61,047 bases of DNA from Candidatus Planktophila sp. (GTDB lineage Bacteria > Actinomycetota > Actinomycetes > Nanopelagicales > Nanopelagicaceae): NCBI GenBank assembly GCA_030681675.1, contig JAUXRP010000004.1, positions 1-61,047 on the forward strand, read 5' to 3'. Position 1 is the first letter of the stretch, and each line of letters opens with the position of its first letter. Shown here piece after piece: positions 43,864 through 50,458 of the stretch. The notes beneath the pieces are model-generated. The model did no database searches. It had not been told where the DNA came from and worked only from the letters and a program-made list of their open reading frames with translations. The position numbers and the translations under genes are program-made.

Positions 43864-44102
43864 GGTAGATGGGCGCACTCGAACAGTGCCCGAGTAAACC
43901 TGCGGATATGTCGCTCGTGCACGCATATTTTTCCTCAAGAGCCTAAGTGCTAACACTAATTGTTTTTCTCTAGGACCCCTTCTACTGGAAGTCAGGTTTA
44001 CGATGAATGCTCGATCTATCACTAGGTCTGCCTTGCTTGTCGGTCCATCGAGTGAGAAATCATTTTCGACCAATTGCAAATTCGTATTTCCTAGGAGGGA
44101 TT

Positions 44103-44771
44103 ATGAAAAGCAAAATCCCAGTCCAAGAACATTTTCACTTGCTGACAGCCAAGCGTGTATGCATTCTGCTCCTCGCTTTCACCGTTACAGCTACGGCAAG
44201 TTTCGCGACTTCTGCTTCAGCGCTTAGTTCATTCGCCAAAGCTGGTGGGGGTGGAGGTGGAGGTGGAGGTGGAGGAGAACCGCCCAAGCCGCCCAAACCA
44301 ACTGAGCCACCTAAGCCACCTAAGCCAACTGGATCAGTTACTCCGCCCAAACCAACTGAGCCACCTAAGCCAACTGGATCGGTTACTCCGCCCAAGCCTA
44401 CTGAGCCGCCTAAGCCAACTGGATCGGTTACTCCGCCCAAGCCAACTGAGCCACCTAAACCAACTGGATCGGTTACTCCACCTAAACCACCTAAACCACC
44501 TAAACCACCTAAACCACCTAAGCCAACTGGATCGGTTACTCCGCCCAAGCCAACTGAGCCACCTAAACCAACTGGATCGGTTACTCCGCCTAAGCCACCT
44601 AAACCGCCTAAGCCAACTGGATCGGTTACTCCGCCTAAGCCACCTAAACCGCCCAAGCCAACTGGATCGGTTACTCCGCCCAAGCCACCTAAACCGCCCA
44701 AGCCAACTGGATCGGTTACTCCGCCTAAGCCACCTAAACCGCCTAAGCCACCTAAGCCACCTAAGCCATAA
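44103..44771 (+). CDS. Secreted Gly/Pro/Lys-rich repeat protein
   Basis: The 222-residue product has a signal peptide (about residues 1-45, cleavage near SASA), a run of eleven glycines, then only proline-rich repeats built from PPKP, TEPPKP and TGSVT to the last residue. TGSVT occurs nine times, mostly every 15 residues. No folded domain, LPXTG or lipobox is visible. The ATG at 44103 has a strong TAGGAGGGA site. The sequence predicts an extended, strongly basic polyproline-type rod that could span or bind the cell wall or anionic polymers. The repeats at DNA level imply copy-number instability. Confidence 0.8.
   Translation: MKSKIPVQEHFHLLTAKRVCILLLAFTVTATASFATSASALSSFAKAGGGGGGGGGGGEPPKPPKPTEPPKPPKPTGSVTPPKPTEPPKPTGSVTPPKPTEPPKPTGSVTPPKPTEPPKPTGSVTPPKPPKPPKPPKPPKPTGSVTPPKPTEPPKPTGSVTPPKPPKPPKPTGSVTPPKPPKPPKPTGSVTPPKPPKPPKPTGSVTPPKPPKPPKPPKPPKP
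44281..44769 (+). repeat. Tandem repeat array encoding PPKP and TGSVT units
   Basis: A 45-base unit (PPKPTEPPKPTGSVT or PPKPPKPPKPTGSVT) recurs across the array, with nested 9-base units such as CCACCTAAA repeated five times near 44479-44523. Copies differ mainly by synonymous changes (cct/ccc/ccg, aag/aaa). Because the unit is rich in non-stop triplets, other frames on both strands also stay open. Confidence 0.9.
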
Positions 44772-46812: not shown

Positions 46813-47367
46813 ATGGAGATTGTTCGCCCCGAAGAGCGATATTTAGAGAGTTATAAAAATGCTCTAATTCAATCGATTTCTTCCGGTACCGCCGCATATC
46901 TTGATCGCGCAGAACGTGAACTATTAGAGATAGAAGCCGATCCCCTTTCCTTCTTGGCCGAGCAAGAAGATCCAAATGCTCTAGGCCCTGATGTGAAACT
47001 TCCTGATGGCTCCCTCGTTCCCCGTTTACCTGGAATTACCCGATGGATGTGGGATGGGCAAGTGAGCGGAGAAATTAACTTTCGTTGGAAAGTTGGTACG
47101 ACGGATTTGCCACCTCATTGTTTGGGGCATATCGGCTATGAGGTATTTTCATGGAAGCGAAATAAGGGTTATGCATCAGAGGCGCTCAGGCAGATACTTC
47201 CTGAGGCAATTAAGTTGGGTATGCCTTTTGTGGAACTTACAACTGATGTTGACAACTCAATTTCTCAAAAAGTGATTAAGAATAATGGCGGAATTCTCCA
47301 CGAGAAATTTGTTAAACCTGCAGCGCACGGTGGCACGGATGGTCTACGGTTTCGAATATATCTTTAG
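46813..47367 (+). CDS. GNAT-family acetyltransferase
   Basis: The 184-residue protein has an N-terminal helical region (about 1-70) and a GNAT core: HCLGHIGYEVFSWKRNKGYA (about residues 100-120) with the RNKGYASEAL acetyl-CoA loop, then GMPFVELTTDVDN and SQKVIKNNGGI in the C-terminal part. The substrate is unknown; the long helical N-terminus resembles the predicted-acetyltransferase family with an amide or antibiotic acceptor. A partial homologous copy lies at 47735. Confidence 0.82.
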   Translation: MEIVRPEERYLESYKNALIQSISSGTAAYLDRAERELLEIEADPLSFLAEQEDPNALGPDVKLPDGSLVPRLPGITRWMWDGQVSGEINFRWKVGTTDLPPHCLGHIGYEVFSWKRNKGYASEALRQILPEAIKLGMPFVELTTDVDNSISQKVIKNNGGILHEKFVKPAAHGGTDGLRFRIYL

Positions 47368-47426: not shown

Positions 47427-47594
47427 TTAACGTTTTCCGCGCATGCTCAAATGTGCAACAATCACACTTGCAACGAACAGTGCGGTTGTAGTCAACGCAG
47501 TCTCTGCGGTAAACCCATAAATCGTGGCTCCCACTCCACCAGTCAATGCCCCACTAACAGCCCCAAGAGCGAGAGAATTATTGCCATTAATTTT
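47427..47594 (-). pseudogene. Small two-helix membrane ORF fused out of frame to a duplicated leader
   Basis: An open stretch of 55 codons without a usable start reads SLALGAVSGALTGGVGATIY and ends VIVAHLSMRGKR. It predicts two membrane helices and a basic tail. Directly upstream, in another frame, lies a copy of the first eleven codons (MPEKLMAIILS) of the gene at 49359-49670. The fusion point is the shared CTCTCGCT. This looks like a gene whose start was replaced by recombination. Confidence 0.45.
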
Positions 47595-47703
47595 TCAGGC
47601 ATTGACTAACTCGTTTCTGTTTTTCAGATCAAATGATATGAATTCCGGGAACGTTAACTCTTTTGCAGGATGTCAAATATGTGAATGAGACAGCCTGTGG
47701 ATT
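47568..47703. repeat. Direct repeat copy A (136 bases)
   Basis: This copy matches 49636-49771 in the same orientation, without gaps and with about 15 mismatches by my count; the first 83 bases differ at only two. It covers the start codon and upstream region of the small envelope gene. Weak similarity continues to about 47721. Confidence 0.88.
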
Positions 47704-47734
47704 GATGATTGTCCTCGCGTAGCTTTGGTAGTTC

Positions 47735-47827
47735 ATTTGGACTTTTGGATTCGAAGTATTTTCATGGAAACGCAATTTGAGATATGAATCCCAGGCCTTA
47801 AAGCAAATGCTCTTAGTTGGGCAATTC
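47735..47827 (+). pseudogene. Fragment of a GNAT acetyltransferase gene
   Basis: The frame reads FGFEVFSWKRNLRYESQALK then QMLLVGQF before TGA at 47828. It matches residues about 107-127 of the intact GNAT at 46813 (GYEVFSWKRNKGYASEALRQ) and lacks both ends. It is a remnant of a duplicated copy. Confidence 0.75.
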
Positions 47828-47830
47828 TGA

Positions 47831-49033
47831 TCAGCCGTATTCGCGTGGTTCCACTCCGGATTCAAAATTACCTAGAAGGTTTAGTAGCCCAACCGCTTCC
47901 CAGGTTCTACTACCAGCACCTTGCGACGCGCGGATAAGAACACCTGCCTGCTCAAGTTGCACCATGGCTTCACCGACTACAGCCTTGGTACGGCCAGAAG
48001 CAGCAACAGCAATTGGTACAGAGATAATTGGGTAGCCAGGCAAAACCTCAATGATTTTCCAAGCAACAGCATCAGCGCGAGGATTTGCCGATGACAGTAA
48101 TGCTGCTTTCCACTCTCTCTGCAACATTTCAACCTCGCCAATATATATGCCTGCCAAGTTCGCCGACTGTGCCGCAGCTGCTATAAATGTCGTCAGCCAA
48201 TCCGCGGTGTCGCCCTCTCTGAATTTTGTGAGTCCGTTTATATAACTTGCTTTGTTGGAAGCGAGCACAATGCTGATCGGTGGAACGTAATGCGGTGTCA
48301 TTCCGCGACGACGAAGTACTACGTGAATAAGTGCTCGGCCTGTTCGACCATTGCCATCATGAAATGGATGAATCGTCTCAAATTGCGCGTGAATTAGACC
48401 TGCTTGGACAATTGGTGGTAACACACCTTCATTTATTGCTACGCAAAGGTCGGCTAGGAGACGCGGTACCTCCTCCGGCGGTGGCGGTACAAAATCTGCA
48501 CCACAAGGGTTGTAGTCATTGCCCCCAATCCAGTTCTGTTCAGTGCGAATCACCCCGGCCACATCTCGATTCGACGCTGACTCCATCAACATTCGATGGA
48601 TATCGATGATGTTTTCTACCGAGATGATTTCTGTATTGGTGGCATGGTCGATCGCCAACTCCATTGCATCGATGTTGGCGATGATTTCACGAGCCGTTGT
48701 GCTGACTTTCCCATTTCTTCCAATTTTCGCCTCTGAGCGCGCCAAATCCAGTGCATCAACCTGCATCCCCTCAATCTTGGAAGAAGCAATCGATTCGGAG
48801 CGCAAAAGTAAGCGCGCCAATGGAGTTAGCGCTGGAACTGAGCGTCCATTTAATTGGTGAATAGCAGTCTCGGCGTCGGAAACTGCTCCGGCAAGATCAC
48901 TGGTCAATGGTTCGGTAAATTCGGCGAGACCCTCCGGAATGAAAACTTCATAGCGGCAGGCACGACGAAATCGCGGTGGGACATAGTGAGTTGGGTCGTA
49001 TGTCCAGGTGCGACGTAGTAATTCGCCTCGCAT
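47831..49033 (-). CDS. Fic-domain protein with C-terminal winged helix
   Basis: The 400-residue protein has the Fic catalytic loop HPFHDGNGRTGR (about residues 216-227), so AMP-transfer or related nucleotidyl transfer chemistry is likely intact. An inhibitory-helix motif SSKIEG (about residues 86-91) N-terminal to the core places it in the self-inhibited class II group. The C-terminal about 80 residues look like a winged helix (IISVPIAVAASGRTKAVVGE then MVQLEQAGVLIRA), common in this subfamily. The ATG at 49033 with AAAGGAGA upstream is favoured over one at 49072. A perfect palindrome lies just upstream, consistent with autoregulation. Confidence 0.9.
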   Translation of the reverse strand: MRGELLRRTWTYDPTHYVPPRFRRACRYEVFIPEGLAEFTEPLTSDLAGAVSDAETAIHQLNGRSVPALTPLARLLLRSESIASSKIEGMQVDALDLARSEAKIGRNGKVSTTAREIIANIDAMELAIDHATNTEIISVENIIDIHRMLMESASNRDVAGVIRTEQNWIGGNDYNPCGADFVPPPPEEVPRLLADLCVAINEGVLPPIVQAGLIHAQFETIHPFHDGNGRTGRALIHVVLRRRGMTPHYVPPISIVLASNKASYINGLTKFREGDTADWLTTFIAAAAQSANLAGIYIGEVEMLQREWKAALLSSANPRADAVAWKIIEVLPGYPIISVPIAVAASGRTKAVVGEAMVQLEQAGVLIRASQGAGSRTWEAVGLLNLLGNFESGVEPREYG

Positions 49034-49055
49034 AAGTTCTCCTTTAAACCGAGTC

Positions 49056-49086
49056 AAAGTATAGTTTAGCATCTAAACTATACTTT
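49056..49086 (-). promoter_or_regulatory. Perfect 14-base palindrome upstream of fic
   Basis: AAAGTATAGTTTAG and its exact complement CTAAACTATACTTT are separated by CAT. A related half-site AAGTATGGTTTA lies at 49098-49109. On the minus strand TTGAAA (about 49087-49092) with TAAACT or TATACT in the palindrome could form the fic promoter, so a bound dimer would block it. Confidence 0.75.
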
Positions 49087-49188
49087 TCAATAGCATTAAG
49101 TATGGTTTATCTCCCAGCCCACAGAGAGAGAAAAAAGCTTGCTACAAGTAAGGAAAGCCAAATTCGAACCTTCTTCGTCATAAAGTTT

Positions 49189-49362
49189 TTACTCTGACTT
49201 GTGTTCAGGATGCTTACGTAAATATTGCACCTTCAATAAAATTAGGAAAGACATCACGAAACCGCCAATAGTTCCATACATCATATAGTCGTCCTTGCTT
49301 GTCCATGCCAAAGTTGAAAAGGTAAAAGCTATGACTCCAGCGATAATGTTCAAATATTTCAT
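49189..49362 (-). CDS. Small two-helix membrane protein
   Basis: The 57-residue protein reads MKYLNIIAGVIAFTFSTLAW then, after the charged turn TSKDDYMMYG, a second helix and the basic end LRKHPEHKSE. Both helices suit a membrane hairpin. The start at 49362 overlaps the upstream stop as ATGA, so the two small genes are coupled. Function unknown; it resembles in layout the broken ORF at 47427. Confidence 0.6.
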   Translation of the reverse strand: MKYLNIIAGVIAFTFSTLAWTSKDDYMMYGTIGGFVMSFLILLKVQYLRKHPEHKSE

Positions 49363-49670
49363 GGGCAGAGCCACCTAGATAGTGATGATGCCACAGCATT
49401 AGCTACTGATGTGGCATTAGTAGGTATTTTGATCAAAATGACTACAGCCGCAAGCGGAATCATTGTCGTAATTATTCGACAGAACGGAATGCTCTTCAGA
49501 GGCGGTGATAAACGCGCCACTGCTGAGGGTGGAGGTGCGAGTACTATTTTTTGTACGTTACTTGGAGCTGGCTTAGGTTTTGGTGCTGCACTTGCACTCC
49601 CTGTGCCGGCAATTCCAATTCCAGATATGAGACCCAGCGAGAGAATTATTGCCATTAATTTTTCAGGCAT
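49359..49670 (-). CDS. Small secreted or membrane protein
   Basis: The 103-residue protein has a signal peptide (MPEKLMAIILSLGLISGIGI, cleavage near ASAA), a Pro/Lys/Ala-rich segment and a hydrophobic stretch (about 68-82, TTMIPLAAVVILIKI). The family is not recognised. The upstream region, including its start, is duplicated at 47568. An opposite-strand open frame covers the same bases but lacks a signal or site. It is followed by a coupled membrane protein. Confidence 0.55.
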   Translation of the reverse strand: MPEKLMAIILSLGLISGIGIAGTGSASAAPKPKPAPSNVQKIVLAPPPSAVARLSPPLKSIPFCRIITTMIPLAAVVILIKIPTNATSVANAVASSLSRWLCP

Positions 49671-49771
49671 TTACTAACTCGTTTCTGTTTTTCAGATCAA
49701 ATGATGTGAATTCCGGGAACGCTAAACCCTTTGCGCCAATTCACAGGTGTGAATGAGTCAGCCTGTGGATT
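49636..49771. repeat. Direct repeat copy B (136 bases)
   Basis: This is the partner of copy A at 47568-47703. Between the two copies lie the GNAT fragment, fic and two small genes (about 1.9 kb), so recombination between the repeats would delete or duplicate that block. Confidence 0.88.
49739..49754 (-). promoter_or_regulatory. Palindrome upstream of the small secreted gene
   Basis: ATTCACA and TGTGAAT form a perfect 7-2-7 inverted repeat. In copy A the left arm is degraded while the right arm is kept, so the site has been lost there. It is a candidate operator. Confidence 0.55.
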
Positions 49772-49808
49772 ACCGGCTGCTTTCGCATAGATAACTTAAA
49801 TTTGCCGC

Positions 49809-50216
49809 TTAAGGATTTTCAAGGTTAAAAATTGCAATATCCGTCTTGTTAAAGTCGTCACCTTTGCACATGAGTTCTCGGTTCGTAGCTGAAGCAAGAG
49901 CATAGGCAAGGACATCACCAAAATTTAATCTGGCCGGATGACCTGTGCCTTTTCCATAGTCTCTATAAGCCACACGTGCAATTTCAACCTGTTTAAAATC
50001 TATTGGAATTATTTCGATTCCTGATGCTTTTATAAATGCATCAAATTTACGAATTGCTACTGGATCTTTCGTAGAATCAACAACTATCGCGCTCTCTAAG
50101 TAGTTTCCAACAGACATCGAGCAGTCATTGCTAATAATGGCCGTTAGAATTTCATCGCTCCCGGATTCAGCTAAGAGAATTGATAAAATTGCTGAACTAT
50201 CGACTATTACTTTCAT
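49809..50216 (-). CDS. vapC: PIN-domain toxin VapC
   Basis: The 135-residue protein has the PIN acidic residues: Asp5 in VIVDSSAIL, Glu in NYLESAIV (about residue 42), Asp in NFGDVLAYALA (about 99) and Asp in KGDDFNKTDI (about 117). The sequence closely follows the Rv0624-like VapC group, including GHPARLNFGD. VapC toxins cut RNA when freed from VapB. The start at 50216 overlaps vapB by four bases; an upstream frame to 50318 lies over vapB and is rejected. Confidence 0.9.
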   Translation of the reverse strand: MKVIVDSSAILSILLAESGSDEILTAIISNDCSMSVGNYLESAIVVDSTKDPVAIRKFDAFIKASGIEIIPIDFKQVEIARVAYRDYGKGTGHPARLNFGDVLAYALASATNRELMCKGDDFNKTDIAIFNLENP

Positions 50217-50458
50217 CGAGGTAGGCCCAATTCGTTGTAGAGCATTGAATCGACTGATTCTCTGTCCATGCCTTTTGGCATTCGAAGCGAGATTTCTTGT
50301 GCCAGAGTTCGCAAACATTCAAGGCGATCCTGGGCCGTGGCTCTTGCCAGGCGCTCGCGCAAGGCCACGGTCACGGCCTCAGTAAGAGTCTCGTCATAAA
50401 TCGAGGCTACTTGCGTGGCTAGCCGATGAGCCTCTTCATTCTTTATGTTCATTCCCAT
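50213..50458 (-). CDS. vapB: VapB-type antitoxin (Rv0623-like)
   Basis: The 81-residue protein begins MGMNIKNEEAHRLATQVASI, followed by ETLTEAVTVALRERLARA, the PSK-type ribbon-helix-helix DNA-binding and dimerisation pattern of the Rv0623 antitoxin family; its C-terminal tail binds the toxin. The start may be ATG at 50458 or at 50452. It is divergent from deoD and coupled to vapC through ATGA. Confidence 0.9.
   Translation of the reverse strand: MGMNIKNEEAHRLATQVASIYDETLTEAVTVALRERLARATAQDRLECLRTLAQEISLRMPKGMDRESVDSMLYNELGLPR

Follow-up and report, generated by a model that had tools for sequence, protein, structure and literature searches.

Residues of a Fic winged helix co-vary with a palindromic operator array at fic promoters, which Fic very probably reads itself

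Upstream of a fic gene of Candidatus Planktophila sp. lie a long palindrome and a further half-site (49056–49109), and the question is which protein reads them and to what effect on the gene. The window, meaning the whole stretch of DNA analysed, is 61,047 nt long. A preliminary description of it had proposed that Fic, a self-inhibited enzyme with a winged helix of its own, could serve as its own repressor at this site, which would link AMP transfer to transcription. The upstream region contains the following features.

49056–49086, no strand assigned: putative operator palindrome, with left arm AAAGTATAGTTTAG at 49056–49069, spacer CAT at 49070–49072 and right arm CTAAACTATACTTT at 49073–49086
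49057–49068, + strand: half-site 12-mer AAGTATAGTTTA, arm 1
49074–49085, − strand: half-site 12-mer AAGTATAGTTTA, arm 2, start-to-start 17 bp from arm 1
49098–49109, + strand: third half-site AAGTATGGTTTA, divergent, 24 bp from arm 2, a spacing common to many relatives
49063–49090, − strand: predicted promoter TTGAAA-16-TAAACT within the putative operator, weak (1 found against 0.4 expected)
49039–49045, − strand: probable ribosome-binding site AAAGGAG, read from the sequence
47831–49033, − strand: fic gene including the stop codon, 400 aa, with Fic_N, Fic and a C-terminal winged helix

Both elements reported earlier were recovered: a perfect inverted repeat on the + strand reading, with 14-bp arms and a 3-nt spacer, and a third half-site in which AAGTATGGTTTA differs from AAGTATAGTTTA at one position. 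The palindrome is the sole perfect inverted repeat of the whole window with arms of at least 11 bp and a spacer of at most 10 nt, and the longest arm in 40 dinucleotide-preserving shuffles of the window was 12 bp. The organism's own genome (a 1.83-Mb assembly in 46 contigs, 97.94% complete) holds one match to the palindrome at up to three mismatches. Single half-sites are common at up to two mismatches, with 58 matches, fewer than for a reversed-pattern control. In a relative (G271) the site occurs only at that genome's own fic promoter, in two consecutive copies. The second Fic gene of the window's genome (L297, G000:C41:7537-7574, outside the window) has a different long palindrome, also found once and nearly identical to that of a same-genus relative (L099).

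The open reading frame list had placed the fic start at an ATG at 49072, the centre of the palindrome. This start was rejected, as orthologues L090, L091 and L092 offer only the equivalent of 49033, and the longer reading frame is, judging by these sequences, an artefact of the list. The palindrome is placed upstream of fic, at 23–53 bp, because the true start is 49033, preceded by AAAGGAG.

The gene and its upstream region are bracketed by 155-bp direct repeats (47568–47722 and 49636–49790, 85% identical), of which no further copy was found in the genome at E 0.001; the pair suggests an old duplication or insertion. Beside the fic end, a 59-bp piece of a GNAT acetyltransferase gene (47140–47198) is repeated at 47753–47811 with 73% identity. 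A VapBC-like pair on the − strand at 49809–50458 encodes a PIN domain protein and an Rv0623-like (PSK_trans_fac) protein by Pfam, and similar proteins were found near fic homologues at two of the other 88 loci (L091 and L096). A reading frame with proline-rich PPKPTGSVT-type repeats lies on the + strand at 44007–44771.

The features of the Fic protein that bear on self-regulation are these.

48767–48784, − strand: inhibitory motif SSKIEG, residues 84–89, read from the sequence
48344–48370, − strand: catalytic motif HPFHDGNGR, residues 222–230
47894–48067, − strand: winged helix domain, residues 323–380, from the predicted structure
47948–47986, − strand: recognition helix, residues 350–362, of which residues 350, 351 and 352 co-vary with operator bases 3–7

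Pfam assigned Fic_N and Fic to the protein. Among 173 relatives, 159 have the catalytic motif HPFx[DE]GN[GK]R and 152 have an [ST]xxxE[GN] motif within the first 160 residues; in the window protein the latter lies N-terminal to the Fic core at residues 84–89, as expected from the inhibitory helix proposed earlier. By these catalytic and inhibitory motifs the product is a class II, SoFic-like protein with predicted AMP transferase activity. It matches the PADLOC SoFic model at E 1e-72; against the NCBIfam SoFic equivalog it scores 55 of 550 bits, far below the cut-off. The AlphaFold2 model of the full protein (mean pLDDT 93.8) contains the winged helix that had been claimed, with helices at 323–333, 339–346 and 350–362 and strands at 366–368 and 377–380. 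The nearest solved structure is an M. marinum FIC protein solved with CDP (PDB 7cb8; Z 45.8 over 383 residues, 32% identity), for which no paper was among the literature matches listed. SoFic (PDB 3eqx and 3zcn) has the same fold over 354–356 residues (Z 37.1) and a class II inhibitory motif, although identity to the window protein in the structural alignment is 18%. As comparison of the full model mostly tests residues 14–304, the winged helix was also folded alone (mean pLDDT 81.3), and its matches in the PDB included winged-helix proteins, MarR and IclR members being two examples, all at weak E-values (best 0.005) and mixed with ribosomal proteins.

Matches to the protein at E 1e-20 were found in 11 of 296 genomes of the window's family, its own included, so that fic is an accessory gene there; other proteins of at least 58% identity turned up in just five genomes, all from a different genus. 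Related proteins are also encoded on plasmids, with 788 records showing some match and 131 covering at least 80%. One locus (L108, G271:C1:223501-223728) is a fic remnant of 76 residues that shares 72% identity with the window protein and lies approximately 1.3 kb from intact L091. Two homologues, L018 (1559–3706, 716 aa) and L012 (2530–4644, 705 aa), carry approximately 310 extra C-terminal residues with no Pfam match in them.

Conservation of the site was examined in a set of 89 distinct fic upstream regions drawn from L001–L108 after exclusion of loci that lacked the N-terminus or a start codon, had less than 140 bp upstream, contained N letters or repeated an upstream region; among those excluded were orthologues L093 and L094/L030, in which the contig breaks off within the gene. 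Absence of the palindrome next to close fic homologues, which would have spoken against the earlier proposal, was not observed: all three orthologues of 75% identity with upstream sequence bear arrays of the window's half-site, arranged as two or three consecutive palindromes, some of them imperfect. Of the 89 fic upstream regions, 56 reached a symmetry score of at least 9, as did 52 of 1186 other windows taken from these loci and 43 of 3560 shuffled sequences. In a larger set, 126 of 220 fic promoters (one of 221 loci was too short) contained a strong inverted repeat at this score compared with 17 of 205 non-fic promoters, the latter taken from the first locus set plus the window with its own fic then called from 49072 (p 3e-29 in a one-sided rank test). 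When loci were grouped by identity to the window protein, the share with a strong repeat was 3/3 at 70% or more and 16/30 at 45–70%, followed by 29/50, 37/55 and 25/42, and 16/40 below 32%. In distant relatives the operator letters differ and the symmetry is often kept.

Operators were located with a protein-blind finder that combines symmetry with a core score over half-site positions 8–12 (position 7 contributing a further 0.3 when it is A, G or C); 97 of 221 loci failed its criterion. In the 90 loci with a clear palindrome from the training set and first hold-out set described below, the two 12-mers are separated by 5 nt (66 loci) or 6 nt (24 loci), and the median position of the central palindrome is −37.5 relative to the start codon. 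At least one extra half-site 22–25 bp away, mostly 23, accompanies it in 54 of the 90. At up to three mismatches an added divergent half-site at exactly 23 bp was counted 32 times on the upstream side and 27 times on the downstream side, against at most 0.6 per cell when the arm letters were shuffled. The 24-bp spacing of the third half-site of the window is consistent with this family array.

These data bear on whether the palindrome is an RNA or DNA structure (a hairpin, terminator or recombination site) rather than a protein operator. Perfect palindromes can form hairpins, and the position of fic between two 155-bp direct repeats indicates that the segment was rearranged. Such a structure is nevertheless extremely improbable here, given that symmetry persists while the letters change with residues of the protein (see below) and that single half-sites, unneeded for a hairpin, recur at 23–24 bp. 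A role as terminator was rejected, no terminator-like site being found in 48950–49260.

If the palindrome is an operator, it could belong to Fic or to another protein. Many winged-helix repressors use palindromes of this kind, and an unlinked repressor might control fic genes through them. Genes beside fic were scanned at the 89 loci, 1.5 kb upstream being present in 67 and downstream in 60, among reading frames of at least 60 aa with fic masked, a limit above the size of a 47-aa gene such as that for AS1, an antitoxin named and proposed for Sofic (PMC12249575). No neighbour, whether a regulator or a candidate antitoxin of a two-gene system of the phd-doc, FicTA or Sofic-AS1 kind, recurs among these reading frames, the largest family being found at 5 of 89 loci. 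Three observations make an unlinked repressor very improbable: no regulator recurs beside fic among reading frames of this size, the two Fic paralogues of the window's genome have different operators, and, also in hold-out sets and on the tree, operator letters track the recognition helix of the Fic encoded next to them.

The last of these was established by comparing 392 well-filled alignment columns with operator positions in a training set of 73 aligned proteins (set A1), counts being restricted to positions where both arms agree. The 16 of 89 proteins left out of this set were the cut proteins L092, L047, L104, L061, L058 and L072, the long fusions L018 and L012, L057 and L107, and, by thinning, L063, L073, L081, L076, L087 and L099. 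Residue 352 ranked first of the 392 columns for base 7 (z 9.3), with 49/49 loci with a clear operator following the rule and 52/57 without the core requirement. Residue 351 ranked first for bases 5 and 6, and for base 3 column 22 was first and residue 350 fifth. The associations were written down before new loci were fetched, the formal hold-out rule pairing base 7 with residue 352, and A6 with P351 or Q351.

The first hold-out set comprised 100 loci, 39 with an operator, after 19 of 119 had been dropped (at least 90% identity, no start or short upstream region). The association of residue 351 with base 5, one of the training results written down beforehand (Q with C or T, scored as C only) but scored after the loci of this set had been inspected, gave 20/23 against 7.1 expected, with 0 of 20,000 shuffles as good. 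Dropping the core requirement gave 32/41 (12.4 expected), and for base 5 column 351 ranked first of 356. For base 7 the set was uninformative because R, K and Q were absent from residue 352 of the scored proteins, the rule giving 33/37 against 33.0 expected and, without the core requirement, 44/57 against 42.4. Also without the core requirement, P351 accompanied A6 in 15/17 and Q351 in 11/14, A6 being the commonest base anyway. Column 39 ranked first for base 6 in this set. A second hold-out set of 48 loci, 34 with an operator (18 of 66 dropped), was fetched by R352 queries to obtain R and Q. Counted without T and N at 352, a choice made after the first hold-out, the base-7 rule gave 30/30 against 18.9 expected (0 of 50,000 shuffles); proteins with T or N at 352 deviate from the simple rule, and the Q352 proteins of this set are close relatives of one another. 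Residue 351 and base 5 gave a weak result here, 3/6 (p 0.067), or 5/9 without the core requirement (p 0.0014).

When the training and first hold-out sets were pooled (381 columns), column 350 came top for bases 3 and 4, column 351 for bases 5 and 6, column 352 for base 7 and, by MI, column 121 for base 8. A tree-aware count of coincident changes in 146 sequences, with the winged helix left out of tree building, again placed 350 (bases 3 and 4), 351 (5 and 6) and 352 (7) on top. In this count base 8 paired best with 355 and base 1 with wing residue 375; base 1 was a near tie, as was base 4, for which columns 65 and 334 came close to 350. Q352 with G7 arose independently four times on the tree and R or K352 with C7 seven times. 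In pooled counts that include the training set, K350 is found with G3 (28/28), F350 with T3 (28/29), R351 with G5 (10/10), A352 with A7 (85/86), Q352 with G7 (12/12) and R352 with C7 (5/5). Residues K350, A351 and V352 of the window protein and bases G3, T4, A5, T6 and A7 of its operator fit this pattern, which looks like a colinear code between recognition-helix residues and operator bases. Given the co-variation of operator letters with residues 350–352 of the adjacent Fic, with which the hold-outs agree where testable, it is very probable that the operator is read by Fic itself.

The recognition code described for the LacI family (PMC2978694) likewise used local regulation to derive residue-base rules from genomes, although for another fold and family and without an enzyme. 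A closer parallel is CccR of Yersinia pseudotuberculosis, a Fic protein with a C-terminal HTH and a palindrome in its own promoter, for which self-repression is described from lacZ fusions, EMSA and footprinting, together with delivery by a type VI secretion system (PMC9755527). An autoregulating Fic acting through a palindrome is thus already known. The window protein shares with CccR the Fic domain, a C-terminal (winged) HTH and a palindrome near the promoter of its own gene. The geometry differs: the CccR site is given as AGATAATCAT-N26-ATGATAATCT (PMC9755527), whereas the 12-mers of the window array lie 5–6 nt apart with further half-sites at 23–24 bp, and the 26-bp separation was found at none of the 90 loci, which have 5 or 6 nt instead. 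Among the open-access literature matches listed, judged by title and beginning of the abstract, CccR was alone in having an autoregulated Fic operator, and neither a short-spacer array nor a residue-base code appeared.

What Fic does at the operator is answered with less certainty than the question of who reads it. Of the earlier proposal that Fic is its own repressor, action through the winged helix on the palindrome is strongly supported by the co-variation and by the frequency of palindromes at fic promoters, which far exceeds background; for repression, the weak promoter call and the CccR precedent suggest that Fic probably turns down its own gene. Bound Fic might instead activate its promoter, or both activate and repress it, which would be compatible with self-binding, and in some relatives (L090, L092) the arrays do reach further upstream. 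Activation is unlikely in view of the central palindrome's median position at −37.5 from the start codon, the extension of a half-site into the ribosome-binding region in some relatives and repression by the relative CccR.

We consider it highly likely that the winged helix of a self-inhibited class II AMP transferase reads the 12-bp half-sites and that dimers on the array repress fic. Direct recognition of the half-site by the winged helix would account for the co-variation. The family array runs ← 23/24 bp → 17/18 bp ← 23/24 bp →, and three of its half-sites persist in the window. Fic dimers, suggested by the symmetry and by published SoFic and CccR structures, would occupy the array over the promoter. 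Bound dimers would then lower fic transcription, as the promoter overlap and CccR suggest, giving negative autoregulation. Such proteins would need tight control, being presumably toxic when leaky. Tight control makes sense because wild-type E. coli Sofic, a single-gene phage defence, is described as uncloneable behind one lac operator (PMC12249575). Regulation of Sofic toxicity is there called elusive, and the words HTH and transcription are absent from the main text of that paper.

A more far-reaching and rather doubtful reading is that the array is a docking scaffold, on which dimers sit in the 17/23-bp geometry and DNA occupancy sets enzyme activity, making the operator both a DNA antitoxin and a sensor. 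Stripping or titration of the operator, for example during phage takeover, would then release the enzyme in active form and lift repression of the gene in the same step. A link between AMP transfer and transcription, part of the earlier proposal, would have a parallel in CbFic2, a class II Fic with a winged helix whose AMPylation is stimulated by DNA (PMC10628234); the analogy is limited because the DNA bound was random and HTH deletion left affinity for 20-bp DNA unreduced, and the passages of that paper mention no operator.

Self-repression through the array, the reading preferred here, would mean that operators of uncharacterised relatives might be predicted from three residues and that different codes insulate paralogues within one cell. 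For the family as a whole it offers a testable idea of how SoFic-like enzymes may be kept harmless, by self-repression through an operator array with a partly readable code.
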